A stretch of 64,000 bases of DNA from NCBI GenBank assembly GCA_004194705.1, contig SADC01001297.1, positions 310,001 through 374,000 of the forward strand, written 5' to 3'. The position numbers and the translations under genes were made by a program. The stretch comes from Ditylenchus dipsaci (lineage: Eukaryota; Nematoda; Chromadorea; Rhabditida; Anguinidae). Of this stretch, positions 3,785-48,847 are shown piece by piece. Numbering within the stretch: the stretch's first letter is position 1; every line of letters begins with the position of its first letter. The notes beneath the pieces were generated by a model that did no database searches, had not been told where the DNA came from, and saw nothing but the letters and a program-made list of their open reading frames with translations.

Positions 3785-3987
3785 ACCCCCCCCCCCCCGA
3801 ACGACACCCAACTGGCAGGACTCCCCAACTAGCAGCACCCAACTGGCAGGACTCCCAACTGGCAGCACCCGACTGGCAGGACTCCCAACTGGCAGCACCC
3901 AACTGGCAGGACTCCCAACTGGCAGTACCCAACTGGCAGGACTCCCAACTGGCAGTACCCAACTGGCAGGACTCCCAACTGGCAACG
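3785..3987. repeat. 30-bp tandem array, forward arm
   Basis: After a C run, the unit CCCAACTGGCAGGACT followed by CCCAACTGGCAGCA (30 bp in all) repeats about six times with slight length variation. The inverted counterpart lies at 5214-5413. It encodes only repeat-derived peptides. It could be the two arms of one element of about 1.6 kb or two unrelated array insertions. Confidence 0.8.
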
Positions 3988-4330: not shown

Positions 4331-4994
4331 TATGTTCAACATATCTCTTTTTACCCTGGCAGCTCCCAACTGGCAGCCAAATTTTTCCTATATTCCTAGA
4401 CAAACAAATCATTTTAAACTAGTAACACTAGAGTTGACCCAAAACTGCGGTTCCGGTTTACCAGTCCTTTTTCGGATCCCGATTCCGGTTCCTGTCCTCA
4501 TCCAAATATCAATTCTAAGCCTAACTCTATCATGATTTTGCTCTTTCTTAGCTGACTTCAAACGCATATTTTCAACTTTTGGAGCTAATTTTTTGTGTTA
4601 AATACCGAAATAAAAAAACACATGTAAAGCTGCAGCGATTAGTTTCAATAATACGTTTTTGAGACTCCGGATTTGGTTTCGGCATAAATAAAATTCCGAT
4701 TCCGGCTGCGGTTTTTACAAAACTCAAATCCCGATTCCGCTGTTAGCAAAAGTCAAATTCTGGTTCCGGTCCAAATATCGATTTCGAGACAACTCTAATT
4801 AACACTATGTTATAGTAACACTAAGTCAAAATGTAAAACAAAACATTAATTCTCACGTAAAACCGTATAGGGAGTTGGGTTTGATAGTACTAAAATTTCG
4901 ATTTCACACACGCGTACCCGAAAAAAAATTCAGACCAGCGAGGGGGGATATCCACCTACTCGAAGATACCTACCCCAGAATATTCAGGTACATA
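4331..4994. other. Spacer between repeats
   Basis: Mostly AT-rich. The stretch at about 4450-4800 repeatedly shows variants of GATTCCGGTT and CCGGTTCC, possibly a degraded iterated-word array. No exon recognised. Confidence 0.4.
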
Positions 4995-5180
4995 CAGTCT
5001 ACTCTCGATAAACTGGCACCCCTGGGGACCAGCCTGGGTGCCAGTTTATCGGGGGTGCCAGTTTACTGGGATGTTACTTTGCCTAATTTCTCTGTCGGCC
5101 AGCCAAGTAGGGCTTTTTAAAAGTGCCAGTTTATCGAGGGTGCCAGTTTATTGGAGTGCCAGTTTAACGAGAGTAGACTG
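4995..5180. mobile_element. TA-flanked MITE, word ATAAACTGGCACC
   Basis: Flanked by TA (4993-4994 and 5181-5182). Ends are CAGTCTACTCTCGATAAAC on the left and its complement on the right. The word GTGCCAGTTTA(T/C) recurs five or six times in both orientations. The TA duplication and CAGT terminus fit Tc1/mariner-pogo-type MITEs. No transposase is encoded. Confidence 0.75.
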
Positions 5181-5213
5181 TACCCCAGTCAAACTACAAA
5201 ATTAAAAAAAGTG

Positions 5214-5413
5214 CTGCCAGTGGGAGTCCTGCCAGTTGGGTGCTGCCAGTTGGGAGTCCTGCCAGTTGGGTGCTGCCAGTTGGGAGTCCTGCCAGTTGGG
5301 TGCTGCCAGTTGGGAGTCCTGCCAGTTGGGTGCTGCCAGTTGGGAGTCCTGCCAGTTGGGTGCTGCCAGTTGGAGTCCTGCCAGTTGGGTGCTTCCTGCC
5401 AGTTGGGTTTTAC
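5214..5413. repeat. 30-bp tandem array, reverse arm
   Basis: Reverse complement of the 3785-3987 array: GTGCTGCCAGTTGGGAGTCC repeats about six times with a 30-bp period, followed by a C run. Confidence 0.8.
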
Positions 5414-5481
5414 CCCCCCCCCTTTATGCATTTCTAATTCTTCGTATATCATATTTGAACGTCTCCTAAGTAATTCTTATA

Positions 5482-5598
5482 CAGTTGACTCCCTCTATAA
5501 CGAACACCCTGGGACCGGTCTTAGGTGTTTTTTATGGAGGGAGTTCGTTACAGAGGGAGTCCGTTATAGAGGGGGTACCTTACAGAGGGACTCGACTG
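5482..5598. mobile_element. TA-flanked MITE, word ATAACGAAC
   Basis: Bounded by TA (5480-5481 and 5599-5600). Left end CAGTTGACTCCCTCTATAAC; right end complementary (GAGGGACTCGACTG). The word is GTTATAGAGGGAGT and variants. The insertion interrupts AAGTAATTCTTATA / CGCTAAAAACG. The uninterrupted form of this site exists at about 307-330, so the insertion and its TA duplication can be read directly. Confidence 0.85.
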
Positions 5599-5799
5599 TA
5601 CGCTAAAAACGATTTAAAAAATCGTTTTCTAACTTATTCTCCTGCAAAGATTCGATTTTTGAAGAATTTTTTTGGCTGAAATTTGACCTTGTGTCTTGAG
5701 GACCAAGGCAAATTAACATAAGATACACATATATCTCAAAAAATTCAATTTGAACATAGTTTTGTTGATTTGAGCCTACCGCATAAATAAACTCTGTTA

Positions 5800-6220
5800 C
5801 AGTCGAACCTGGATAAACGGACACCCCAAAAGTTTGTTGCCCCGGCTGGGTCCGACACTTTTTTAGACCTCTTTTGAATGTTTTTGTCAATTCTATTTTG
5901 ACAGTCTGGTCACAAATATCGCAGGGGTGCGATTTTGCCGATCGTTTTTCAAAAACCAATAACTTTTCACTATAAAAAAGCAAAACCTCGATAACAGGCA
6001 CCCTTTTTCAGAAATAGGTGTCCGTTTATCGAGGTTTTGCTTTTTTATAGTGAAAAGTTATTGGTTTTTGAAAAACGATCGGCAAAATCGCACCCCTGCG
6101 ATATTTGTGACCAGACTGTCAAAATAGAATTGACAAAAACATTCAAAAGAGGTCTAAAAAAGTGTCGGACCCAGCCGGGGCAACAAACTTTTGGGGTGTC
6201 CGGTTATCCAGGTTCGACTG
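5800..6220. mobile_element. TA-flanked MITE, long member with core
   Basis: TA at 5798-5799 and 6221-6222. Ends CAGTCGAACCTGGATAAACG and its complement; the arms are near-perfect over about 200 bp each. The core carries GTCCGACACTTTTTTAGACC and GATTTTGCCGATCGTTTTTC, shared with elements at 38.9, 43.6 and 46.1 kb. It has landed inside a GC-hairpin-cassette arm (ACTCTG before, GCATCCAGAAT after). No protein-coding potential beyond mirror-image frames. Confidence 0.85.
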
Positions 6221-6339
6221 TATGCCTGTTTTCCATGCATCCAGAATTATTTTCGGGTGATTTGTGTCTAAGGTGTGTGTGTGTGCTCGTCTCAAATTTT
6301 TTGGCATATGAAGCCAAAAAATAAGATTTTTGCTTGGTA

Positions 6340-9101: not shown

Positions 9102-12100
9102 ATGAGAGAAAATTCTCGTTACAAGCGTTGGCACCTTATTGCGCTTGGAGCCCTTCTTTTTTCTATTCTAGTTTTTTCATTGGCCTTGGGACACTCCTCT
9201 ATCTTCCGTCAATTATTGAAACAAGTATTAGACAGGTATTTTTTGGCTCTAAACATGTGCTTAAGTCAACGTCAAAATTGTGAAGAAAGTATATTTTATA
9301 GAAAAAGTACTTTTTGGCTACTTTTGAAGAAAAGGGTGGGTACTTATCCTTTATCCGGACCTCACTTTAAAACAGGACAGACTTTAGGGGGGGGGGCTTA
9401 TTTGGTAAAACAGCGATTGGGTACACATTGTGGTTGGGTACAGCGGTTGGGTACAATTGTGATTGGTACAGCGGTTGGGTACAGTTTAAAAATTAGTTTT
9501 CAATTTATTTAGTCCCACCGCATGTTTTTTGAAATTTTTTCACTTAGGCTTAGCCTTAGGTGCAAGGTAGACCAGTGCTCGATAGGACCGTTACCACGCA
9601 TTTGGGCACATCGCATTTGGGCACCCGCATTTGGCACCCGCATTTGGGCACACCGCATTTGGCCCCCGCATTTGGGCACCCGCATTTGGGCACCGCATTT
9701 GGGCCCCGATTTTAAAATTCTATATTTTTAAATTATAAATTGAAATTTGTCAATTTTTCGGGCCACGGACGTTTGACCTTAAGCCGCTTCGTTGACACGC
9801 ATTTAGGCCGCATCCCATACCATGTACCCCAAAGGGTCAGCCCTTATCCCGGACCATGTACCCCCAAAGGGGCTTCCTATTGAATTAGGTTGCCTGCCGA
9901 AGGCAGGCAGGTAAAAAATCTAGAAAAGTCAAAATTTTCGATGGAAAGTATTCGGACCTGAAATGAATACAAATTTTATTATAAAACAGTAACATATTGA
10001 TACATTTCAATTTATAATTTCAAAATATGGAACTTTAAAATCGGGGCCCAAATGCGGGTGCCCAAATGCGATGTGCCCAAATGCGTGGTAACGGTCCTAT
10101 CGAGCACTGGTCTACCTTGCACCTAAGGCTAAGCCTAAGTGAAAAAATTTCAAAAAACATGCGGTGGGACTAAATAAATTGAAAACTAATTTTTAAACTG
10201 TACCCAATCGCTGTACCCAACCGCAATTGTACCCAACCGCTGTACCCAACCGCAATTGTACCCAATCACAATGTGTACCCAATCGCTGGGCAGTCGCTGA
10301 GTCTGATCCTGAGCTTATTTCGACTAGAAAATGGAATTTCGCAAGCTTAAGTTAATTTTATTTTTAATGCAATCATGAGAAAATGGCAAACTTTTAAAAA
10401 CAAATTTTACAGCTTATTTATAATGAATAAACGCTGTTATGCACTGATTTAAACAAAAATGCGATCCGGATAAAGGATGACTACCAAAGCGTCATTTTAT
10501 GCAGTGCTTATTGCCATTTTCAAGTAAAATTTTTTTGACTACAAATTTTATAAAATAAAAAACATTTGGGGTATGAAAAAAGTGAAAGTCTCTTTGAAAG
10601 GTACAGTCTTTAATTATTGAATTTGCAGTCCTCCATTCTGGCGAAAGATAGTCAGCTGCTGGAAAAATGGACAAATCCTGAATACATGATCTCCACCAAT
10701 ATGTGGACATTTTCTGGTTCTATTTTTTAGTTTTTCTAATAGGAGTTGTAAGATTATGTATAGTGAGAAATCCGGATGATGTGTTGAATAATTCTGTGCC
10801 TGAGGTCAAAATGATGGGCCCATATGTTTTTGACCAAAAGATGAGGCGAAAGGTTGGACAATTGCTGAATTTTCTGTTTTAAAGTTGCATCTTTTAGGTC
10901 CATTCGTTAGAAAATGGAACAGTCAAGTAGGTTTAAAGAATTCTAGGAGTCTGGGCTTAATAAATTTTTTTTTAAATATTGTTAGGAACTTAGTCTTAAC
11001 AATGTTAGCAGACACGTTAATCTTGGCAAAATTTAAACATTTTTGATATTGTTATTTGGACCATACCATCTTTAACCGCTTGTAGGCTTGTTGATTACAC
11101 AAAAAATAGCCCAGAATCACAGATAAATTTTAAGTGGTCATCCGCTTATGGGTGATTTGAGTTGGCATTGTCAAAAAATACGATCCCCAGATGCTTACTA
11201 AAATAATTTGACCAACTTGTAATGGTGAGATCTGTGGATAAACATTTGCGGATACAACATTCGCTGACTTAAATTTGCGGCAAAACTTTTACAGAACAAT
11301 ATTTGCAGACCGACATTTGCGGAGCAATTTAAGCGAAGGGATATCAGCGGAATGGCTTTTGCGTTGCAACATTTATGGATTTCACATTTGTGGGAATAAC
11401 ATCTGCATAACTACATTAGCGACAGGACATTTGCGGTGCTATATTTGCGGAAACGACTTTTTCGCTCCGCGAAATAACTTTCGCAGAGCGAATTTGCGGA
11501 ATCACATAAAAACTATATGAAAAGTCTTTGAAAAATACCATTTTTACTAGTGCTTTTTAAGTATAACAACGAAAACCAATGAATTCATTAAATGAACAAT
11601 AAGTAACTCGATAATATTTTAAGTTTTATGTCGTTTCCACAAATGTCGCTCCGCCAAAGTAATTTCCGCGAATGTCGTTTGCGCAAATGTCCTGCCGCAA
11701 ATGTTGGTCTGTAAATGTCCTTCCGTTAATGTCGCTCCTCAAGTGTCGTTCCACATAAGTTGTTCTGCAAATGTGCTGCCGCTAATGACGGTCTGCAACA
11801 GTCGTCTCCGCAAATTTTATGTCCGTAAATACCCTTCTGCAAATGTACATCGGCAAATTTAGGTCTGCAAAGGTCTTTATGTTAATTTTACGTCCGCAAA
11901 TAACCCGCCACAAATGTTTATCCGCAGATCTCGCCATGCCACTTGGAATCAACCAAATCAACTTTTCAAAAAATTGTTACAAACACCCTATCTCAACCTA
12001 AAATCGGCGGAGATCAGAAAAACATTATTTTTTGATTCTGATCAATAAAAAATTGATTTTCGGGCATTTGAAATTTCGACCATTTGCCTGTTTTACCGTG

Positions 12101-30305: not shown

Positions 30306-30450
30306 GTCACTATGCTGAAATTTTAAAATCTGAACAGTAATTTGAATAGTTGAATAGAAATCGAACTTTTCAAAAATACGGTGATCATTAGGTTCCTGCC
30401 CTGGCTGAGTTTAATTTTGGAATAGACCGTGCCAATTTCAATTTGACATA

Positions 30451-30628
30451 CAGTCGAACCTCTCTATAGTGTACACCCAAGGGACCGAGCCCAGGTGTAC
30501 ACTATAGAGAGGTGTACACTATGGAGAGTGTACACTACAGTCGAACCTCTCTATAGTGTACACCCAAGGGTGTACACTATAGAGATGTGTACACTATGGA
30601 GAGTGTACACTATAGAGAGGTTCGACTG
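30451..30628. mobile_element. TA-flanked MITE, word TATAGTGTACACC
   Basis: TA at 30449-30450 and 30629-30630. Ends CAGTCGAACCTCTCTATAG and its complement. The word recurs seven times. An internal copy of the whole left end starts at about 30538, so the element carries a partial internal duplication. Confidence 0.85.
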
Positions 30629-30632
30629 TATG

Positions 30633-34200: not shown

Positions 34201-37200
34201 GACTAGAACACAAAAATAATGCCTTTTTCGAGCTTCTGAGGCAATTTTAGGTCGATATAGGGTGTTTGGAAACACTTTAAAAAAAATTTCATTTGGGGGG
34301 GGGTATACTCCGGTAGCGCCAACGTTTTTTATATTTCAGCCTTAACTTTATACCAACTTTTTATCTGTATGATAGATCAAATGAAAGCCCAGAACCTTGG
34401 CTACATTTTGGATCTTCACTAAAATTGACCGGTAACGAGTATAGCACGAAGTAGGGTTGTCGAATATTCGCTTCAAGTCGATATTCGAAAAAAGTCAAAT
34501 ATTTTCGAGTAATATTCGTAATCGAGTATTCATTCAGTCGGAAATCCTATTCCCAAGTACAACGTTGAATAAAAACAGGGGTCGAAATCCACCAAATGCC
34601 GAGTTATCAGCCAGCTATTACAATAAAATTTTACATTCGCATCAACTTTACCGACAACCTAGTAAAAATACCATACATTGCATTTGAAGTGGCCATTTTC
34701 TGTGGGGCAATGGGACACAATTGACCAGTTGCTTCGTAGGTAGTAGTAATTTCATGGGAAGCATGATTGGAGGGGCCTGACATAGAACAATAACGGTAGA
34801 AATGCAAAAATAGATGTAGACTTACATTGGAATTCTGCACCACAGCGACCACCTTGTTCTTGGCAGTGTCATCAAACGCACAAGCAGCACTGAAAACACG
34901 AAACAATTATAGTATTACAAATGAATATGGACTACTGTAAACAATGTGGAATGGCGCCTTACAGGCGCCTTTTATAAATTATTTTAATGAGCTCTCGATT
35001 TTGGTGACAGATGCCACTGCTTGCAATTGTTTACTACGCTTATTATACTTTTATAAACATAATCGTGTAACTGCAGAGGCTGGTTCGGCGCAGAGTAAAC
35101 GTTTGTAATTTTTAGGCGATGGATCCGCTCCCGGCTCCTGGTGCCAATGCCCGGCAGCATGGTTGCGCCGCCGCAGGCGGCAGCCCGAAGCGCCACGGCA
35201 GCGAAAATTTTGGAGCGCCGGCATTTACGGTGGCGCCGGCGTCGTTTTTTGGCAGTCAGTGGAGGCGGCGGCGATTTTGGTGCGGCCAGCGTTGCCGCCA
35301 GAGGGCGCAATATCAAATTTATTAAAACTGGTGATTCAAATTTAAAATTTTTTCATTAAGGCGGAAAATCTGTGTGGTTAGTGTTCGTTATTCACCGATT
35401 GCATGCGTCGAAACCGTGGTGCCTGAGTGGGTACATTCAAACGATACGTTCCGTTATACAATTAATCACGTGTTAGAATGGTGAGAAGAGCAAGATAGAT
35501 AGGCTGATTGGACGGTATTTTTAAGACAGGCGAACCCCACGTAAGGTTAGGAAAATCATGTGGATGCTAAGCGGTCAACGTGAATATTATTTACAAGAGT
35601 CGGCAGGCGCCTATCGGCGCCTAATACAGACATTTTTGCAACAGACATTACCTAACTGCTGACAGTAAATTCGTGCTTAGCGTACTCAATTTGCTTACAA
35701 ACGGTTTTAAAATTCAAACTCGACTCTATATTTTTAAATCCCTCTCGAGACAAAAAATTTCAAATTTTTCAAATTTTCAAATTGTCAACAACAAACATAA
35801 GACCATAGGTCATTTTTAGATCCGACGCCAAACTTCAAAGTAGGAGATCCCCTATTTAAAATGCATCATTTTTGACGTTTTTATTTAAATTAAAGCTGAC
35901 ACGCTGGGGAATCTAGCGTACCTACGAAAAATGTTTGGCGCCGGCAGGGATCTAACCCGCGGTGAAAAATAGTTTTCCTGTCTAGAATAATGTTGTTTTG
36001 AACGAATTCAAAATTTGAATTTGATAACAAATTTTTTGATGACTATGAGACCTCTATACAAACAGACAGATCACCCCTTTAAAATGCGTCTTTTTCGATG
36101 TTTTTTTTAAACGAAAGCTGTCATTGAGGCGGATTCAAAAAAATTGGCAAATTTAATCAAACATGTTTTTTTGACTCACTTATACCCCTTTGAAGTCAAA
36201 AAAGTGCCCAAAAAATCAAAATTTGCGGAAAAACTCGAAAATTTCATTGAGACCCCCAATTCTGACATTGCCAAAGTGATTTTTGACCCTGATTTACGTT
36301 AGAAAGTGTTCTCAGAAAAAGATCTGGAGCACTCCCAATGGCTGCCATGCGTAGCGTAACACACACAGCCATTCCAAATACTATACAGTCGGACCTCGCT
36401 ATAGTGCGACCCCACTATAGTGCGACTTCCACTATAGTGCGAGTTCAGGACCAGTTTGGTTGGTTTTGCCCCAAATAAGGCTGACTAGACCTCCAATATA
36501 GTGCGACCCCACTATAGTGCGACTTCCACTATAGTGCGAACCTGACGCGGTCCCGACAAATAAAACGACCCTCGATATAGTGCGATTCATAAAAATTTAT
36601 GTTAAAAATCACAGGATTTTGAATTCCCGCCGAAAAATCAATTATTGGTACAGTCGCAAACAACTACTAAGATACTCATTCTTCTTTTAGTCTCTGACGT
36701 GTAACGCCATCGTAATTTTTATGGCTAGGGGAAGATTGCCAAAAACGAAAATTGCCAAAAACGAAAATTGCCAAAACGAAAATTGCCAAAACGAAAATTG
36801 CCATGACAAATGAAAGCTTAGTGAATACGAACATATACCACTCAGTTCCACATAACGTACCCTTCATTTATCTATTCGTCTAAAAATGACTTAAGTCAAA
36901 CCTAGATATAGTGACTCCTACAATATAGTGACACCTCAAAGTCAAGACAAATGTCGTTTTGGCAATTTTCGTTTTTGGCAATTTTCGTTTTTGGCAATTT
37001 CGTTTTTGGCAATTTTCGTTTTGGCAATTTTCGTTTTGGCAATTTTCGTTTTTGGCAATCTTCCCCTAGCCATTTTTATTATTTTAGTTATTTTGCAATG
37101 AGCACTCCTAACAAAAGTCGCGCTTCTTCACAGTCCTTTGATTGTTTATTGTTCATTTTGTTAATTTGTTCTTGTTATGGTTGTTTTACGAATGAAACTT

Positions 37201-40200
37201 TGATTTAATGCAGCGTTTTGAATGATAAGCTCGATATACAGTAGAAATCTCCCATTAACATACCCCCCCCCAATTAACATAAATCTCTCATTAACATAAC
37301 GCTGGTGTCGGTCCCTTTCAATTGATCTTCTATATAATTTACCCTCCCATTAACATAAACTTCCCATTAACATGATGGTTTTGCCGGTCCCTTGGCGTTA
37401 TGTTGATGGGAGATTTGACTGTAGTGCGAACATTGTTTTCAAATGGTTTGGAGACCCTCGATATAGTGCGACTCCCACCATAGTGCGAGTTTGGGCTGAC
37501 CCCAAGGGGTCGCACTATAGCGAGGTTCGACTGTATAAAGAGGTTCTAATAGAGGCCCTGAGTTTTATTTTTCATCCTCCCGCTAGAGAGGGGGATTCTA
37601 TTAAAACATTTGCGCTATTTAATATTTCCAAGCACCCACCGATTGATTGTGCGACGGTCCCTCTCCCTTCGAAACCTCTTCCTGGCTGCCCTCATAATCT
37701 TCCAATATACAATGATTATAGCACACAAGGGAATATAAAAGGCTGTCGCTGTGCTGAACACCTGCAAAAAATTACACTATTTACATAGAATTTCTTTATT
37801 TCAGTAGAAGTTTTTTTTTGCTATGAACCTCAAATAAATAACCAGAAGTACTTTTTCTGTCCATATCATTTATCAAGCCCAGTTTTAAGCGTAGTTCCTC
37901 AGCTAGAGGGTAAGCCAGTGTGTGTTGGATGGACTCAAACATAGACATGGAAAAGGGACGGGGCAATTCTGTCCCGCCTGGTCGAATTTTGAAGCATCGT
38001 CCCGTCCCGGAATCTTTCTCGAAATTTTTTGACACCTGTCCGTCCAGAAAATGTCAAATTGCCATCTCTACTCAGACATATGTCTCGAACTTCAAAAAAG
38101 GTTAAAAAACATGTTCAAGTCTATCCAACCCTAATCCTAAAAATAAGTCAAAAACAAAAAGGAAAACCAAAGCAAAAACAATTTATTTCATAAAATTTTT
38201 AGCATTTTATATTAAATGTTTAAAACAAAATTCAACTAATACCTGATAGCTAATTTGCTGGGATATTAGGCAAACATGTTGCTGCCTCACCCTATTTACA
38301 AATTGAGCATCTTTCCACCCGAATATTGGCGCTAGTGAGATAAGCAAGGAAAGTACCTGTAAAATTGTTAAAGTTACATTCGCCTTTTTTGGACACCATC
38401 CAATTTTGTATAGGTCTAAATGTCAATAAAAAAAGCCTTGAGATACTTCTCCGATATTGCTTTATATCAATCTTCCAATTAATTTAGTCACTCATGTATG
38501 GTAATATTAGGTGGGGTAAACCAAAAAATCCATTTCTAATAAAACTTTTTTCCATGAAAAATTTCAGAAAAAGCATAATTTATAAGCCCACATACCCATA
38601 TAATCATGAGCATAAAGAAAATGCGTTTAGGAGTCCTGTTCTGGACATAATAAATGTCTGTTACTGACCAATACCTAAACAAATTCAAACATCCTTAAAA
38701 ATTGTTTTTTTGACAAAATTGGTTTTAGCAGATACCTGTCCAGAGCAATGGCAACTAAGTGCAATATAGACGAGGTGCACACTAGCACGTCCATAGAAAT
38801 CCAGAAATCACATAGAGTGACTCCTTAAAATGAACAAAATAAGTTTTAAAAATTTTGTACCATAGAGCTTTGTCAAAATAAAGTTTTTGAGATACAGTTT
38901 GAAATGCAAGTAGTGTACACCCCTCAAGTTCGTTCCCGCCTTCAGTCCCATACTTTTTTAACCCTGATTTTGAAAACTCTTGCTAGTTCTGTTTTAACAG
39001 ACTGGTCCCTAATATTGCAGCGATTCCACTTTCGCCAATCGTTTTTCAGAATCACAAAATTTTTCTCTCCAAAAAAGCGAAAACTCGATTTAACGACATC
39101 CTTGAGGGGGTATCTTTTTAGCCACTCATTTTGTAGCCAGTAAGATGAGCTGCCGAATGAATGGTAATTTGCCGGAGAAGGGAATAACATTACTTGAGAA
39201 AAAAAGCTATTGATGAAAACATACCATTGCAGAATGATCTCATTGGCGAAAAGTAGCCATTGGCAAAAAGATCACATTGGCGAAAGTTTCATTGCCAAAA
39301 CGATTAGGCCCCTCATTTTTTCATGGTTCTGAAAAAAGAACGGCAAAATCGGAATCCCTGAAACATTTGGGACCCGTTTCTTAAAACAGAGCTGGCAAAA
39401 GTATTCAAAATCAGACCCTAGTAGCCAATACCCAAATACCATTTTTGGATTATTTTTATGGAGCATTTTGCTATTTTATTTTAGAAATCTTTTATAGAAA
39501 ATTTGACGCTACTGTCATATACCCCCCCCCAAAAAGCTACTGTAATATACCCCCCCCCCAAAAATCGGACCTACTGTCATATACCCCCCCCCCAAAACCG
39601 ACTTTTTAGGAGTGTCTAAAAACCATTTTTATGCAATAATTTTGCCATAAAAGGTCCAGAAAAGCAATTAAAAAGGGATTATGGGCTGTATTGGGAGGGA
39701 AGGGAATAATACAGGGGCCACTTTTTTTAGCTGCTTTACCATGTTTTTCAACTCGGGCCGTGGCAAAAATAGACTCTATATGCATTTTATGATCAAGTGT
39801 ACTTCTCGGAATCATGTCTAAGGTAAGTGCGTGCGCGCATCTCTAACTCTCAAGCCCCCTGCGCCCCTTCGGGGCGCAGGGGGCTTGGGGGCTTGGAGTT
39901 GAGATGCGCACACCCACATACCTTAGACACAAATCACTCGAAAGCGACTCTGGATGCATGAAAAAACATGCATACCAGAGTTATTTATGCGGTAGGCCCC
40001 AGTATTCAAAACTATGTTCAACATCTTTATTTTTCACGAAGAGCATTTCCCCTCGTTCTATAAGGCCAGGCCAGAGGCCCAGCATCCAAAAATTCAGCCT
40101 AGCACCCAAAAAGTGCTAGGCCTATGAGTAAACCACGAGGTCCACCCCGCTGATGGGCTTGGTCCATGAAAAGTACTTATACTTATGCCTGCACCACAAG

Positions 40201-41067
40201 TTCCTGGGTTTGAAAGCACCTTTAGACTCTTAGAGAATTATTACTCTAATGATCCCAACCATCTCGAGAAGTGGCCCCTGTATTATTCCCTTCCCATCCC
40301 AATACAGCCCGCAATCCCATTTAAATTGCTTTTCTGGTCCTTTTACGGCGAAATTATTGTGTAAAAATGGTTTTTGACCATCCCTAAAAAAGTCGGTTTT
40401 TGGGGGGGGGTATATGACAGTAGGTCGATTTTTGGGGGGGGTATATTACAGTAGCGCTTTTTGGGGGGGGTATATTACAGTAGCGCCGAAAATTTGATTA
40501 TAGAAAAAACTTGTTGTTTGCAAAGGTAGTTAGAGCAATTTTAAAAGGTCGGATGCTTGGGGGGGTATTCGCTACTAGCGCCAAAAATCAATATTTGGAC
40601 CAGTCTGTTAATTTGAGGAGTGCACACTATATCAAGCGTCGACTGTAGTATTCATAAAGTAATCCTAAAATAGCTCACCCAAATGCCAGGCCTGCCTTAG
40701 AGTAGCCCAAGCGCCAAGAGGCGTTACAAATAAGCCGACCATGAGGTCTGCGACAGCCAGTGAAAATATTAGGTAATACTGGGGCGAGAGCGTAGATCTC
40801 TCTCCAGCAATATGGCCAGAATTACAAAAAAGTTGCCGACCACACAGAACAGGATGAGCAACAACAGCAGGGACCCAATACCCACACTTGTCCAGAAGTC
40901 CAGGGGTTTGCTCCCCCTTCCTCTTCTCGCTGCTGTAGCAAGGCCTGCATGGTGGCGTTGACTAATGTAGTGGTGGTGGGACTGGCTAAATGCCTCCTTC
41001 CCAACGAACTTTCGTCAAAAAGACCGGCGGCTACCTGGTAGATGGCTGTGCCGTTGAGAAAGTTCAT
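31267..41067 (-). CDS. 5-HT1-like serotonin/aminergic GPCR
   Basis: Seven-helix rhodopsin-family receptor, probably Gi/o-type serotonin receptor by resemblance to 5-HT1 and insect 5-HT receptors. Exons on the + scale, in coding order: 41067-40679, 38823-38736, 38674-38596, 38356-38243, 37761-37640, 34889-34826, 34776-34672, 32936-32801, 32701-32577, 32230-32113, 31433-31401, 31346-31267; about 484 residues. Seen: N-terminal NGT and NAT glycosylation sites, helix 1 [12 protein letters not shown], helix 2 [10 protein letters not shown], helix 3 [14 protein letters not shown] with the amine-binding Asp, then IALDRYWSVTD, GWKD in loop 2, helix 5 [10 protein letters not shown], helix 6 CWTPFF, and NPVIYTIF. 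The tail is short (ends NKPY). Phases match at every junction except possible ambiguity in the 34776-34672 loop exon. Exon 1 needs one extra base near the C run 40913-40917 and another near the G run 40781-40784. Long intracellular loop 3. Ligand is inferred, not shown. Confidence 0.9.
31640..32040. repeat. Half GC-hairpin cassette in receptor intron
   Basis: TGTATTGGGAGGGAAAAGG and AAAGGGGCCACTTTT recur at 39690-39720 and in reverse at 40265-40300 and 59895-59935. Then follow ACTTCTCGGAATCATGTCTA and AGTGAGTGTGCGCATCTC, with a C run in place of the hairpin. Confidence 0.65.
32937..34671. repeat. Receptor intron with a 0.7-kb palindrome
   Basis: The palindrome (about 33620-34325) has ends with GTATACCCCCCCCCC and GGGGGGGGGTATAC. 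Arms share AACACCCTATATCGACC and TTGCCTC, and a full GC-hairpin cassette (hairpin about 33903-33945) sits at the centre. 33180-33560 repeats the 3400-3700 sequence. The rest is AT-rich with no exon seen. Confidence 0.75.
34945..35632. repeat. GC-rich block with GGCGCC words
   Basis: Starts ATGGCGCCTTACAGGCGCC and ends CAGGCGCCTATCGGCGCC. The interior 35110-35310 is strongly GC-rich (CGCCGCCGCAGGCGGCAGC) within an AT-rich intron. Open frames here are short and unlike any family I know. It is most likely another word-bearing element; exact ends unknown. Confidence 0.45.
35633..36385. other. Receptor intron spacer
   Basis: AT-rich, with repeated AAATTTCAAATTTTTC-type sequence and two copies of a module containing AAAATGC(A/G)TC and GACGTTTTT or GATGTTTTTT (35860 and 36080). 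No exon seen. Confidence 0.4.
36723..37071. mobile_element. hAT-like MITE, word AAAACGAAAATTGCC
   Basis: Ends GGCTAGGGGAAGATTGCC and complement. Identical 8-bp duplications ATTTTTAT flank it (36715-36722 and 37072-37079). The word AAACGAAAATTGCC is iterated about four times on the left and about six times inverted on the right. 349 bp, no coding capacity. Confidence 0.9.
37239..37421. mobile_element. TA-flanked MITE, word CCCATTAACATA
   Basis: TA at 37237-37238 and 37422-37423. Ends CAGTAGAAATCTCCCATTAA and its complement ending AGATTTGACTG. The word recurs five or six times. It interrupts the host element's word: CTCGATA before and TAGTGCGAAC after. Confidence 0.85.
37796..37935 (-). pseudogene. 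Ty1/copia RNase H relic
   Basis: A minus-strand frame contains [20 protein letters not shown], matching the DRKSTSGY(V/L)F hallmark of copia-type RNase H. Only about 45 codons remain, with no integrase, reverse transcriptase or LTR visible nearby. It lies in the receptor intron directly before the helix 5 exon. A chance match is possible but the motif is specific. Confidence 0.5.
38890..39190. repeat. Relic of the core-bearing MITE family
   Basis: Retains CAAGTTCGTTCCCGCCTTCAG, ACTCTTGCTAGTTCTGTTTT, and TTCGCCAATCGTTTTTCAGA, homologous to the cores at 5800-6220, 43575-43975 and 46079-46500. The word here is TAGTGTACACC. The right end is lost. Confidence 0.6.
39191..39507. repeat. ATTGGCGAAA word region in receptor intron 1
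   Basis: CATTGGCGAAAAGTAGCC and CATTGGCGAAAG variants recur at 39240-39300, probably one arm of another element. The rest is AT-rich. Confidence 0.45.
39508..40487. repeat. 980-bp palindrome with C/G-run ends and GC hairpin
   Basis: The left arm has three units of TACTGT(C/A)ATATACCCCCCCC and the right arm three inverted units. Inner blocks (ATTTTTATGCAATAATTTTG, GGGATTATGGGCTGTATTGG, GGGCCACTTT) pair with 40260-40370. The centre is a GC-hairpin cassette (hairpin about 39852-39890). It has the same plan as 33620-34325. The segment up to 40590 repeats the end of the 55.7-kb element. Confidence 0.85.
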
Positions 41068-43574: not shown

Positions 43575-43975
43575 AAAAATTCGTTCCCGCCTAGTGTCCG
43601 ACACTTTTTTACCGCTATTTTTGAAGACTTTTATCAAATCTGATTCGTTAGTCTAATTGGAAATATCGCAAGGATTCCGATTTTGCCGGTCGTTTTTGTA
43701 AAAGGCAACTTTTTCTGAAAAGACCCGCTCCTCTCGATATAGTGTAGCATTATTTTCAAAAAAAGGCTACACTATATCGAGAGGCGCGAGTCTTTTCGGC
43801 AAAGATGTTGCCATTCACAAAAACGACCGGTAAAATCGTAATCCTTGCGATAATTCTGAATAGAATGAAGAACCTGATCTGGTAAAAGTTTTAAAAATTA
43901 GACGTAACAAGAGTATCGGACCTTAGGCAGAAATAAAATTTTGCACCTACACTATATCGAGAGTAGGCTGTAGTT
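43575..43975. mobile_element. Core-bearing MITE, word GATATAGTGTAGC
   Basis: The arms pair around a centre near 43760 (CTCTCGATATAGTGTAGC and complement). Cores GTCCGACACTTTTTTACC and GATTTTGCCGGTCGTTTTTG match those at 5.8 and 46.1 kb. The right end GAGAGTAGGCTG is followed by TA; the left end is eroded. Confidence 0.7.
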
Positions 43976-44755: not shown

Positions 44756-46078
44756 ATAGTTAAAATATTAATTATTTCCAAATTATGATGTGCAAAGCGC
44801 ATAGTGTCAAATCCAGCTTATGAGAACTCATATAAAAGAGTAAGAGCCTAAGCCTAAAAATTCTATCAATTAAAAGACCTTAAACTTCCTGACATGCACC
44901 AAAATATGTGGCACATTCAGCAGCAATGCGACTCCGGAAAACTCGGCTGGAGACGAGGGGGCTTTAATTACCACTACAACAACAAGCACCCTTCCGAACA
45001 CACTGAAGCCAGGAGCAGCAAGAAAAAAAGGGGAAGAACATCCCCTGAATTGGCAATTAGTTGGTGGTGGTGTCCAACAAAGTTTTAATCTGCCCCCATT
45101 TATCCCTCTCATATTGCTGCTGCTGTTGTGCACATCCTTGCCTAATCTTGATGGGGGGGGCAGGAGGACTTGTCAACTGCCCTTTCTATTCAGTGCTTTC
45201 AAGGAGGAGGGCATGCCGAAGCTTCAAATAAGCACAAGATAAATACTTTTTGATGAGAATTTCATAAACTCCGAGAGGCAATCGACACAAGCCATGCCCC
45301 TTTTCAATTCACACACTTTTCGTGGATCTTTTTGTGTTTGTCAAGCAGCTTTAGCCACAGGCTATTCATTGAAAAGTGGAGTAGTGGGGGTTTGCAAAGA
45401 AAGAACCAACAATAATAATAATGATGATGAGGCAAAAAGAAAAAGCTAGCCATCAATGAGAAGCAGGCAACATTAATGTTCGAAAATATTTCGCCAAAAT
45501 GCCGCTCCAATGCAGTCAATTTTTTTTGGTGTGGTGGGTGGGAGCCCCTTAGTTTAGAAGCTGCTTGCAAGCTCAATATTGTGAACAATGAAAAATATTG
45601 AGAAAATAGGATGTAAGCAATGGGGTGTGAAGACCAATTAGATAAAGTTGAGTGGACAACAATTAGGCATACAACAATGATGTACTTTAGGGAAATATAA
45701 ACAGATCGCAATTTTGGCTTGCAACAACCAAAAACACCACAATATACTAAAAATAACATTTTTCTCAAAAGAATAATAAAAGTTCATGTAGCTCGCAAGT
45801 GCACTTCGCAAGCTTGTTTTTCACTCGATAAATTGAGTTTGGTTTTATTGGAGAGCCGTTTTTTCACCTCCCTCTTTTAGCTCACAATTTAAGTTCATAA
45901 AATAAAAGTTATAGTTAGTTAATCAGGTTGGTTGAATAGTTGAGAGTCATTTTGAGCTATTGTTGAGATTTGCCAAAAGTGTGGGTGCCAAAAAAATTGT
46001 CGCCGAAAATGGGTAGTCGATGCGTTACTAATCGAGCTCAAAGTTGCTTGAGTTGTCATGTCTTCTTTAATTTAGATA
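44756..46078. other. Single-copy stretch without a gene
   Basis: Low-repeat, non-palindromic sequence rich in CAACAA/TTATTA motifs. A 154-codon minus-strand frame (45304-45768) has no family features and no supporting splice structure. It may hold distal regulatory DNA but nothing specific can be shown. Confidence 0.45.
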
Positions 46079-46500
46079 CAGTCAACTCACGATATAATGG
46101 CCCCACCTCAAGTCCGTTCTTGCCTAGGTTCCGACACTTTTTTTACTCTTATTGTTGAATCGTTTTGCGAGTTGTCTTTGGCTAGTCCAGTCCTAAATAT
46201 CGTAAGGATTTCAATTTTGCCGATCTTTTTTCAAATAAAAAAAAATTCTGCCGAAAAGATCCGCGGGTACCCGATATAAAGGCCCCTATTTTAGAGGGCC
46301 GTTATATCGAGTGTCCGCGGATTTTTTCAGCAAAATTATTTTTTATTTGAAAGACGATCGGCAAAATCGAAATTCTTACGATATTTAGGACTGGACTAGC
46401 CAAAGACGACTCGCAAAACAATTCAAAATCAGGGTAAAAAAGTGTCAGACCCTTAGTGGGAACGAATTTGAGGTGGGGCCCTTTTATCGAGGGTTGACTG
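46079..46500. mobile_element. TA-flanked core-bearing MITE, word GATATAATGGCCCC
   Basis: TA at 46077-46078 and 46501-46502. Ends CAGTCAACTCACGATATAA and complement-like GATAT.../TCGAGGGTTGACTG. The cores GTTCCGACACTTTTTTTAC and ATTTTGCCGATCTTTTTTC match the 5.8-kb element. Word variants: GATATAAAGGCCCC, CGTTATATCGAG. Confidence 0.8.
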
Positions 46501-46502
46501 TA

Positions 46503-47392
46503 GTTTTAAAAATTAAATTGCTGAAACAATAAATTTCGTTTTCAAAAATAAGACGAAGTTGCAAGCTTTGAATATATTTTGCAACAACAGACACAGCTCA
46601 CCAAAAATAAATGAAAATGGTTTTTAGAACGAACAAAATTTTCTATTTTGATTTGTTTTGTTGGACTCTTGTTCACAAATCTGTCGTTGTTGAGCAGAAT
46701 GCATTAGAAGGGGCAATGCAACATTGTTACAAAGGTTATAAAGTAAAAGTTAAAATCAAATTTTCTTTTTTCCTAGAAAAATAAGTCAATATTTGAGCAA
46801 GAGTAGAGGGAAAATACTAGTAAGGGGTGACATATACCTGACATTTGTAGATTTTAAGTCTGAACTAAATTAGCTCTTAAAATTTGACTAAGAAAAAACA
46901 TGGTTTCCTGAGAAGCTTTCAGTTTGGGGGGGGGGGTTAGGGAGAGGGGGAGGGTATAGGGGGTGAATATTTTTTTGCATTTTTAATATAAAGTCAAAAA
47001 AGTTGGAGGTTGAAAAGTAGGAAAAGTAGAAAACGACATGTCGTTTTATTAAAATAAGTATGGTATCAATGACCTTAAAAAAATAGTTTGAACGCACATA
47101 AAGTTTCAAGGAATTGCATCACTCGATAGCTCTGCCCCGTTGGTGAAATGAACTTTGAAATTTACATAAATAGTTATAAAATTGATTTTGGTAACTTTCG
47201 TTTCTTTTTAAACAAATCCAATTTTCTGTTTGTGGCCGTCCCTAATTGCAAATACCGTATTCTCTCTAATAAACCCACACCCTCGTTTTTTTGACTGGGA
47301 ATTTAGAGTTAGGGTCATTTTTCATTGCAAATGTCAACATTTTGGGGATTGAAGACTAATCCCACAGTGGGATTAATAGAGACAATACGGTA
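46503..47392. other. Spacer without a gene
   Basis: AT-rich. It holds a G run at about 46926 and a purine-rich block, and I see no exon or clear palindrome. A short inverted pair around CCCACACCCTCG/AATCCCACAGTGGG near 47275-47375 is weak. Confidence 0.4.
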
Positions 47393-47763
47393 CAGTCGAC
47401 GCTTGATTTAACATACGCTCGATATAACATACGATTTTAGGTTTTTTTTGGCAAAAAACTTTTATTTTTTACTTTTCTTTCTGAATTCTGAAGACACTCA
47501 CCCCCTTAAAATTCTTTGCTTGACATTTCTGTCTTTTTAGAATTTCTCGTTCCAAAAAAATTCTGAGAAATTTTGAATATTTCGAGTTTTGGCAATTTTC
47601 TCAGATTTTTTTCCCGAAGCCAAAAATTCTAAAAAGACAGAAATGCCAAGAAAATTTGGGAGGTGGGTATTCTCAGAATTCAAAAAATATTAAAATATTA
47701 AAAATTGCCAAAAAACGAAAGTCGTATGTTAAATCGAGCGTATGTTAAATCAAGCGTCTACTG
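47393..47763. mobile_element. TA-flanked MITE, word GATTTAACATACG
   Basis: TA at 47391-47392 and 47764-47765. Ends CAGTCGACGCTTGATTTAAC and its complement. The word (TCGATATAACATACG, GTATGTTAAATC) recurs twice per arm. The interior pairs over most of its length (CTAAAAAGACAGAAATG). Confidence 0.85.
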
Positions 47764-47849
47764 TAGTTAAATTCAATTTGATAAATTTTGCATAAACACA
47801 TAAGCAGACAAAGGCCATTAGTATTTGACATGTTGCAACTAAAAATAAA

Positions 47850-48847
47850 GGCTGGGGAAACTTGCCAAAAACGAAATTTGCCAAATACGAAATTTGCCAA
47901 AACGAAATTTGCCAAAACGAAATTTGCCAAATCGAAATGCGCCAAAACGAAATATGCCGAAACGAAATTTGGCCAACGAACCAACAGGGGGACCAAGGCA
48001 GTTTTTACGTATTTTTCAAAATTTTCGGAATTCTGTCCTAACTGTCCTAACCACCTAAAATCACCCCAAACCAGCGAAAACCATCCAAAATCACCCAAAA
48101 CCCCAAAATCATACAAAACCACCCCAAACCACCCGAAACAATCCGAAACTAAACTAAACAAAAATTTGCGGGAATTTGAATTTTTAGTCTGAACCAACCA
48201 AACCAAGTGGTCGTCGACTTGGATCGAAATTTTTTTTTACGTTTTGGATTCCAAATCCTATTTTCTGGACTTATTCGTGCACGCTGAACATGGTTTGACA
48301 GTGGTAAAATCACGTTTATGAAGAAATTTTTGAGTTTGGGGAATAATTGATTTTGGTAAAATCAATTATTTGCCAAAGCTCAAAAAATAACTGAGAAAAC
48401 GGCATTTTGCCACTGTCAAACCATGTAAGCGTGCATGAATTAGTCTAGAAAACTGGTTTTAGAACCCAAAAACGTAAAAAAATTTTTTGATCCAAGTGGA
48501 CGACACTTGGTTTGGTTGGTTCAGACTAAAAATTCAAATTCCCGCAAAAATTTTTGTTTAGTTTAGTTTCGGATTGTTTCGGGTGGTTTGGGGTGGTTTG
48601 TATGATTTTGGGTGTTTTGGGTGATTTTGGATGGTTTTCGCTGGTTTGGGTGATTTTAGGTGTTAGGACAGTTAGGACAGAATTCCGAAAATTTTGAAAA
48701 ATACGTAAAAACTGCCTTGGTCCCCCTGTTGGTTCGTTGGCCAAATTTCGTTTCGGCAAATTTCGTTTGGCATATTTCGTTTTGGCGCATTTCGATTTGG
48801 CAAATTTCGTTTTGGCAAATTTCGTTTTTGGCAAGTTTCCCCTAGCC
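47850..48847. mobile_element. hAT-like MITE, word AAACGAAATTTGCC
   Basis: Ends GGCTGGGGAAACTTGCC and the complement of GGCTAGGGGAAACTTGCC. Identical 8-bp duplications AAAATAAA flank it (47842-47849 and 48848-48855). Same family as 36723-37071 but a different word. Further inward the arms share an ACCAAACCACCCGAAAC-type array and AAGTGGTCGTC(G)ACTTGG. Frames through it are mirror images. Confidence 0.9.

Follow-up and report, generated by a model that had tools for sequence, protein, structure and literature searches.

Repeated words in the ends of pogo/Tigger-like elements of Ditylenchus dipsaci as putative transposase binding sites

Pogo/Tigger elements, CENP-B and related systems

The elements described here resemble pogo/Tigger elements in their TA target, in their CAGT ends, and in a transposase with CENP-B_N, HTH_Tnp_Tc5, and DDE_1 regions; as in pogo/Tigger, non-coding ends far outnumber coding copies. 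There are two differences. At least 23 lineages, nearly each with its own repeated word, coexist in this one genome, and the two ends differ in layout, one having direct words and the other a word plus an inverted copy. The transposase of Drosophila pogo reportedly binds a 12 bp site in its TIRs. A short site within the ends, bound by the N-terminal HTH, is the putative arrangement here also; but Drosophila pogo is one element with one site, whereas here many words occur in parallel.

The two-HTH domain of these transposases is homologous to that of CENP-B. The CENP-B box holds ACG and has the pattern TTCG + 7 bases + CGGG, whereas the words here are, by eye, TCG + 6 bases + CGG-like. In the alignment to the structure 1hlv, a T of CENP-B takes the position of residue 40, and this T40, together with ACG in the box, fits the residue-40 rule given below. 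CENP-B is said to be derived from elements of one group, the 5′ TIR of which contains a CENP-B box (PMC7325037), and TTCGTTGGAAACGGGA, a string of letters of the box, is found in published alpha-satellite monomers (PMC4585704).

Two other systems are relevant. In the Tc3 transposase, the major groove is occupied by two HTHs and the minor groove by a basic, AT-hook-like sequence (PMC2170065). Such a bipartite domain would fit a helix reading the right half of the word and a linker reading its A/T core, an assignment that comes here from sequence alone. In yeast, template switching between the arms of inverted repeats is known to homogenise them (PMC8604942). It was shown there in strains and fits the single homogenised copy of the window described below, where one copy points to it and an assembly error may be responsible. 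Among the titles and abstract openings listed in literature searches, none describes a swap of words or such a recognition code, which is no proof of absence. The elements belong to a known kind, and the likeliest reading of the private word is as the putative address of its transposase.

Elements of the window and their families

The window is the whole 64-kb stretch analysed, in an assembly of 227 Mb in 1359 contigs. Its elements are collected in Table 1 and are named below by their first base. An earlier note, made on the letters of the window, listed eight TA-flanked places with a repeated word (its element starts lie 2 bases inside the TA relative to the coordinates used here), and all eight do start with TACAGT and finish with ACTGTA. 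The repeated word in these eight elements is 12–15 bases long. The common end given in that note, CAGT(C/T)(T/G)A, holds for CAGT; the following bases are less uniform than proposed, since several ends deviate: CAGTCGG at the left end of 36384, CAGTAGA and CAGTCAA at the ends of 37237, and CAGTCAA at both ends of 46077. The presence of one word in both arms holds in the main. The exceptions are 5480, with a decayed right word (TCTGTAAGGTAC vs. TCTATAACGAAC on the left, 3 of 12 bases different), and 4993 and 5798, the arms of which differ in word (in 5798, the outer word contains AAACGG on the left and AACCGG on the right). Genome-wide, TACAGTCGA occurs 8968 times per strand, against 1357 and 1430 for the reversed control, and the shared ends are therefore not due to chance. 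A second CAGTCGA end is present at 30536, within 30449–30630. The window contains three open frames of at least 150 amino acids, and an Rfam scan of the window at gathering scores gave no match.

Table 1. Features of the window (coordinates in bases of the window) and loci of lineage f01 with nested right ends
Feature	Position	Strand	Word and remarks
MITE	4993..5182	+	GATAAACTGGCACC; left end: word + inverted word; right end: three direct words
Small degenerate MITE	5480..5600	+	left word TCTATAACGAAC; right word decayed
Near-perfect palindromic MITE, skeleton type	5798..6222	+	outer word GATAA(A/C)CGGACACC; inner words near centre
MITE	30449..30630	+	TCTATAGTGTACACC
Longer element, no transposase recognised	36384..37535	+	GCTATAGTGCGACC; contains nested MITE 37237..37423
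Nested MITE, inside 36384..37535	37237..37423	+	CCCATTAACATA
Single arm of a further skeleton relative	38913..39100	+	outer AGTGTACACC and inner GATTTAACGACATCC disagree
Decayed palindromic skeleton relative	43575..43923	+	GATATAGTGTA at three sites (both inner ones, right outer), left outer site lost; limits taken from the profile matches, right end ~50 bases beyond
Palindromic skeleton MITE, another word	46077..46502	+	outer GATATAATGGCCCC / GATAAAAGGGCCCC; inner GATATAAAGGCCCC / GATATAACGGCCCT
MITE	47391..47765	+	GATTTAACATACGC in each arm, present twice at either end
Inverted array pair	3805-3984 with 5211-5393		MITE 4993 lies inside
Inverted array pair	9597-9712 with 10038-10085		
Inverted array pair	36731-36803 with 36957-37063		
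Inverted array pair	39508-39597 with 40392-40483		
Inverted array pair	47857-47976 with 48737-48839		
Inverted array pair	48049-48148 with 48576-48662		
f01 nested right ends	L033, L035, L036, L037, L041, L042, L046, L060 (3′ side)		

Genome-wide, the word is not private to a single element, as the earlier note had it: each of the seven window elements used as queries (36384 was left out) belongs to a multi-copy family. The DNA searches gave 2742 candidates for 5798, 2634 for 46077, 678 for 4993, 425 for 30449, 147 for 37237, 140 for 47391, and 117 for 5480; these totals are not copy numbers, because 40 candidates were scored per query and palindromes may count twice. For 4993, each of the best 40 of the 678 candidates has an identity of 97% or more across no fewer than 188 of the 190 bases.

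The window contains other repeats. Short tandem arrays occur in pairs, in inverted orientation and with a unit of their own in each pair, as in Foldback-like elements. The element at 9480–10202, with TACAGTTTAAAAATTAG ends and arms alike in 45 of 45 bases, is unlike the pogo words and may belong to another family.

Transposases and the words of their ends

The assignment of the elements to the pogo type, made in the earlier note, is right, and a pogo-type transposase with the same ends, which that note suggested looking for, is found in the genome. DDE_1 (PF03184) has 181 profile matches, the 150 listed of these exceeding the cut-off (E = 5.8e-26 for locus L015), and CENP-B_N (PF04218) has 82 (44.4 bits for L035; L016, with 17.1 bits, is below the cut-off of 21.2). 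With a profile of our own, built from the CENP-B_N matches, the region is present in 59 of 60 transposase loci (loci partly overlapping). HTH_Tnp_Tc5 matches L035 (E = 3.9e-12) and a piece of L015 (E = 3.1e-6); two more pieces score 19 bits, below the cut-off of 22.2, and span profile positions 3–28 only. The best solved relative of the N terminus is the CENP-B DNA-binding domain (1hlv, E = 1e-8). The name Tigger is carried by 6 among 120 relatives listed, most of which carry none. The second and third catalytic D are in separate frames; they are ~29 residues apart, by eye, in L025, with a putative splice site.

Thirty DDE_1 loci were cut out (L025 and L032 overlap), and in 23 of them the transposase lies between TACAGT...ACTGTA ends that agree at 24 or more of 36 bases. 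The TA flanks and CAGT ends are seen in the window elements and in the transposase loci, in both cases at filled sites alone. In the usual design of the transposase elements, one end has three direct words and the other a word, a spacer like CCCTGGGGACCGG, and an inverted word. The left part of 30449 corresponds to C120:9542-9634 (98%) and its right part to C120:11641-11798 (77%); between them are a CENP-B_N match (11370-11510) and a DDE_1 match (10682-10819). The MITE 30449, the parts of which bracket these matches, appears to be related to a transposase element by deletion. Among the window elements, 30449 is the only one found to be short, non-coding, and with ends shared with a transposase-bearing element. 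The window words compared with those of the lineages read have no identical 12 bases; the best agreements are 9–11 of 12, and 6 of 12 for 37237. At C1301:234928-235378, the right half of 37237 adjoins a CENP-B_N match, a possible partner transposase.

A protein N terminus and an end word are available for 22 lineages, told apart by hand, and for 23 with L061, added later; nearly each has its own word. For lineage f11, the left end was taken, by word identity, from L034, which has no N-terminal profile match, and protein and left end therefore come from different loci. Positions 15–26 of the word are 96% identical between left and right ends (17 lineages with both ends, lowest 75%) vs. 56% between lineages. 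Two lineages can share one word, the left end of f06 and f13 being identical at positions 15–26.

Word positions 21–26 follow the recognition helix of HTH1 and positions 15–20 follow the linker, more closely than the remainder of the domain accounts for. A scan of all pairs (57 protein columns × 13 word positions) gave mixed results, single pairs being weak after correction except for the best one, which joins position 18 to residue 62 of the linker (p = 0.010). The pair of residue 3 with position 21 (p = 0.036) is clade-like, with only three related lineages differing; residue 40 with position 21 gave p = 0.065 and residue 39 with position 24 p = 0.39. The scan pointed from the HTH1 recognition helix to the right half of the word and from the linker to the left half, and the two regions were chosen after it. 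With the rest of the domain held constant, the partial correlation is 0.216 between the helix and positions 21–26 (p = 0.005; r = 0.188, p = 0.008 with L061 included) and 0.480 between the linker and positions 15–20 (p = 0.007). The crossed comparisons are not significant (helix with the left half of the word, p = 0.17; linker with the right half, p = 0.93). The region tests are thus a double dissociation. The raw correlation with positions 21–26 is larger for the rest of the domain (r = 0.369) than for the helix (0.298). In nearest-neighbour prediction, positions 21–26 are recovered at 70% from the helix, 64% from the rest, and 53% from the linker (baseline 49%), and positions 15–20 at 80% from the linker, 71% from the rest, and 65% from the helix (baseline 63%).

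Individual rules can be written for some residues. With G, S, or T at residue 40, AC is present at positions 21–22 in 11 of 13 lineages, otherwise in 0 of 9 (22 lineages); L061 breaks this rule (D40 with ACG), and with its inclusion the counts become 11/13 vs. 1/10 (p = 6e-4). H62 occurs with T18 in 4/4 lineages (otherwise 1/18), and R35 together with Q39 occurs with G24 in 5/5 (otherwise 1/17). On a tree built without helix and linker, the traits of these rules change 4–7 times, not significantly fewer than shuffled traits, and common descent therefore does not readily explain the rules.

Since the word covaries with helix and linker, it is most likely the binding site of the transposase. We hold it very probable that the elements are non-autonomous pogo/Tigger transposons and that the word, the putative binding site of one transposase lineage, is kept alike by selection. 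The first bases, CAGTC.A behind the TA, would form the common end, with the lineage-specific word lying behind it. HTH1 would read positions 21–26, the basic linker the A/T core at positions 15–20, and HTH2, by analogy, the constant CTC side. Each end would offer several copies, one end as direct words and the other as a word plus an inverted one. Element copies with words that do not fit the enzyme would not be mobilised, and this would make the words alike within a family and different between families.

Palindromic skeleton, arms, and turnover of words

The palindromic elements 5798, 46077, and 43575 and the loci L042 and L088 have a homologous interior, 67% identical between families over 159 columns, and different words (L042 contributed one arm and 43575 three of four sites; 38913 was left out). 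A 34-base piece of this interior has 7696 matches with at most 3 mismatches, the reversed control 0. Within one skeleton element, outer and inner words agree at 0.88 (seven elements, five families); between skeleton families, the corresponding word sites agree at only 0.56 and 0.54 (ten family pairs), and in eight of these pairs the skeleton is more similar than the outer word, in two less similar. The arrangement of outer and inner sites is probably older than the skeleton families, and the words would therefore have been rewritten in concert. These five families bear out the earlier idea that, from one family to the next, the several word sites of an element change jointly. Selection by the transposase, which must bind all copies, explains the concerted change without conversion. 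The inner word of 38913 is unlike its outer word, so the concert is not universal.

In lineage f01, the present right end encloses a second, complete right end whose word, CCCTATAAGATACACC, is foreign; this is so in 8 of the 8 loci for which the 3′ side was available (Table 1). It contains four CCCTATAAGATACACC copies and one variant, and the word of the working outer right end is GATATAACGTACGG. The four bases past the outer end vary by locus and those past the inner end are constant. The left end pairs the first bases of the inner right end (GACGC) with the word of the outer one (GATACAACGTAC vs. GATATAACGTAC, the same save one base). In L036, the outermost word copies have CGTAC; of the interior ones, a single copy at the left end and three at the right end have CATAC. 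The f01 ends look like an exchange of ends plus copy-by-copy change.

New words could come mainly from exchange or capture of whole ends, rather than from step-wise change of sites. The nested and mixed ends of f01 and the finding of a single skeleton with several words argue for such an exchange. On the other hand, the interior CATAC of f01 looks like copy-by-copy change, and a skeleton element would need every one of its sites exchanged, outer and inner, in each arm; exchange as the main source is possible but somewhat doubtful. The earlier note attributed the uniform word to a process, such as arm-to-arm gene conversion or hairpin-templated repair, acting generally inside each element. This is not supported in the families of 4993, 46077, and 47391, where the words are shared by many copies and the arms are no closer to each other than copies are. 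In 4993, the left arm has GATAAACTGGCACC and the right arm GTTAAACTGGCACT in 12 of the 12 best-matching copies, window copy included; therefore, the arms differ in word while the same arm is constant between copies. The arms of the window copies are 84% alike in 46077 and 76% in 47391, vs. 86% and 82% to the best copies, an arm-to-arm difference slightly exceeding that from the best copies. General arm-to-arm conversion is rejected for these three elements. In the palindromic family of 5798, the arm-to-arm identity over nine copies is 0.905 vs. 0.889 with right arms permuted (p = 0.002; ten copies, with L085 dropped as the inverted duplicate of the L084 insertion). This weak overall excess derives mostly from the window copy, which has no arm-to-arm substitution over alignment columns 21–204 and carries 6 private variants shared by its arms and 2 confined to a single arm, vs. 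5 and 105 in the pool of the eight other copies (Fisher p = 4e-6). Once this copy is set aside, shared derived variants no longer exceed expectation significantly (16 vs. 11.9, p = 0.11). A homogenising process is supported for one element, 5798–6222 (6 of its 8 private variants), in which one arm was copied onto the other or the assembly produced that appearance. It is unnecessary for any other copy and, as the general cause of uniform words, conversion is very unlikely, the yeast precedent notwithstanding. L084 and L085 (C169:44536 and C169:65664) hold one and the same palindromic insertion in the two orientations; their flanks match, and they form an inverted duplication ~21 kb apart.

Two further readings concern the force acting on the words. 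A neutral family consensus, without selection, would account for words that belong to multi-copy families. However, outer and inner words agree better than do words between families or the skeleton itself (0.67), their arrangement appears older than the families, and the words follow protein residues; we regard neutrality as very unlikely. Selection of the words by a host CENP-B-like protein, rather than by a transposase, is suggested by the likeness, by eye, of the word to the CENP-B box and by a domain of the CENP-B type. Nevertheless, the words vary between lineages in step with the transposase on the same element, which makes a host protein extremely unlikely. Selection by the transposase is the reading that we retain. 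It is quite possible, though we stop short of calling it probable, that the skeleton was repeatedly re-addressed to different pogo transposases, with outer and inner sites rewritten together and the sequence between them drifting slowly, either by per-site selection or by exchange of ends. The nested ends of f01 would then be a fossil of this process, and the paired words and helices a natural specificity experiment for the CENP-B/pogo recognition code.

For a transposase and its ends to change specificity jointly, the enzyme and several sites must move together. If only the dullest reading were true, the genome would hold a rich but ordinary population of pogo/Tigger MITEs. The type of element is ordinary, but its abundance here allows a start on reading DNA recognition by transposases. 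Of interest are how many word–helix pairs this single genome holds in parallel and that words are rewritten while the skeleton stays constant. The parallel outcomes number at least 23, and in nearly all of them one element carries both protein and site, so that joint change of specificity can be tested by ordinary binding assays. Since the same domain made CENP-B, the code may help in reading other domesticated pogo proteins.
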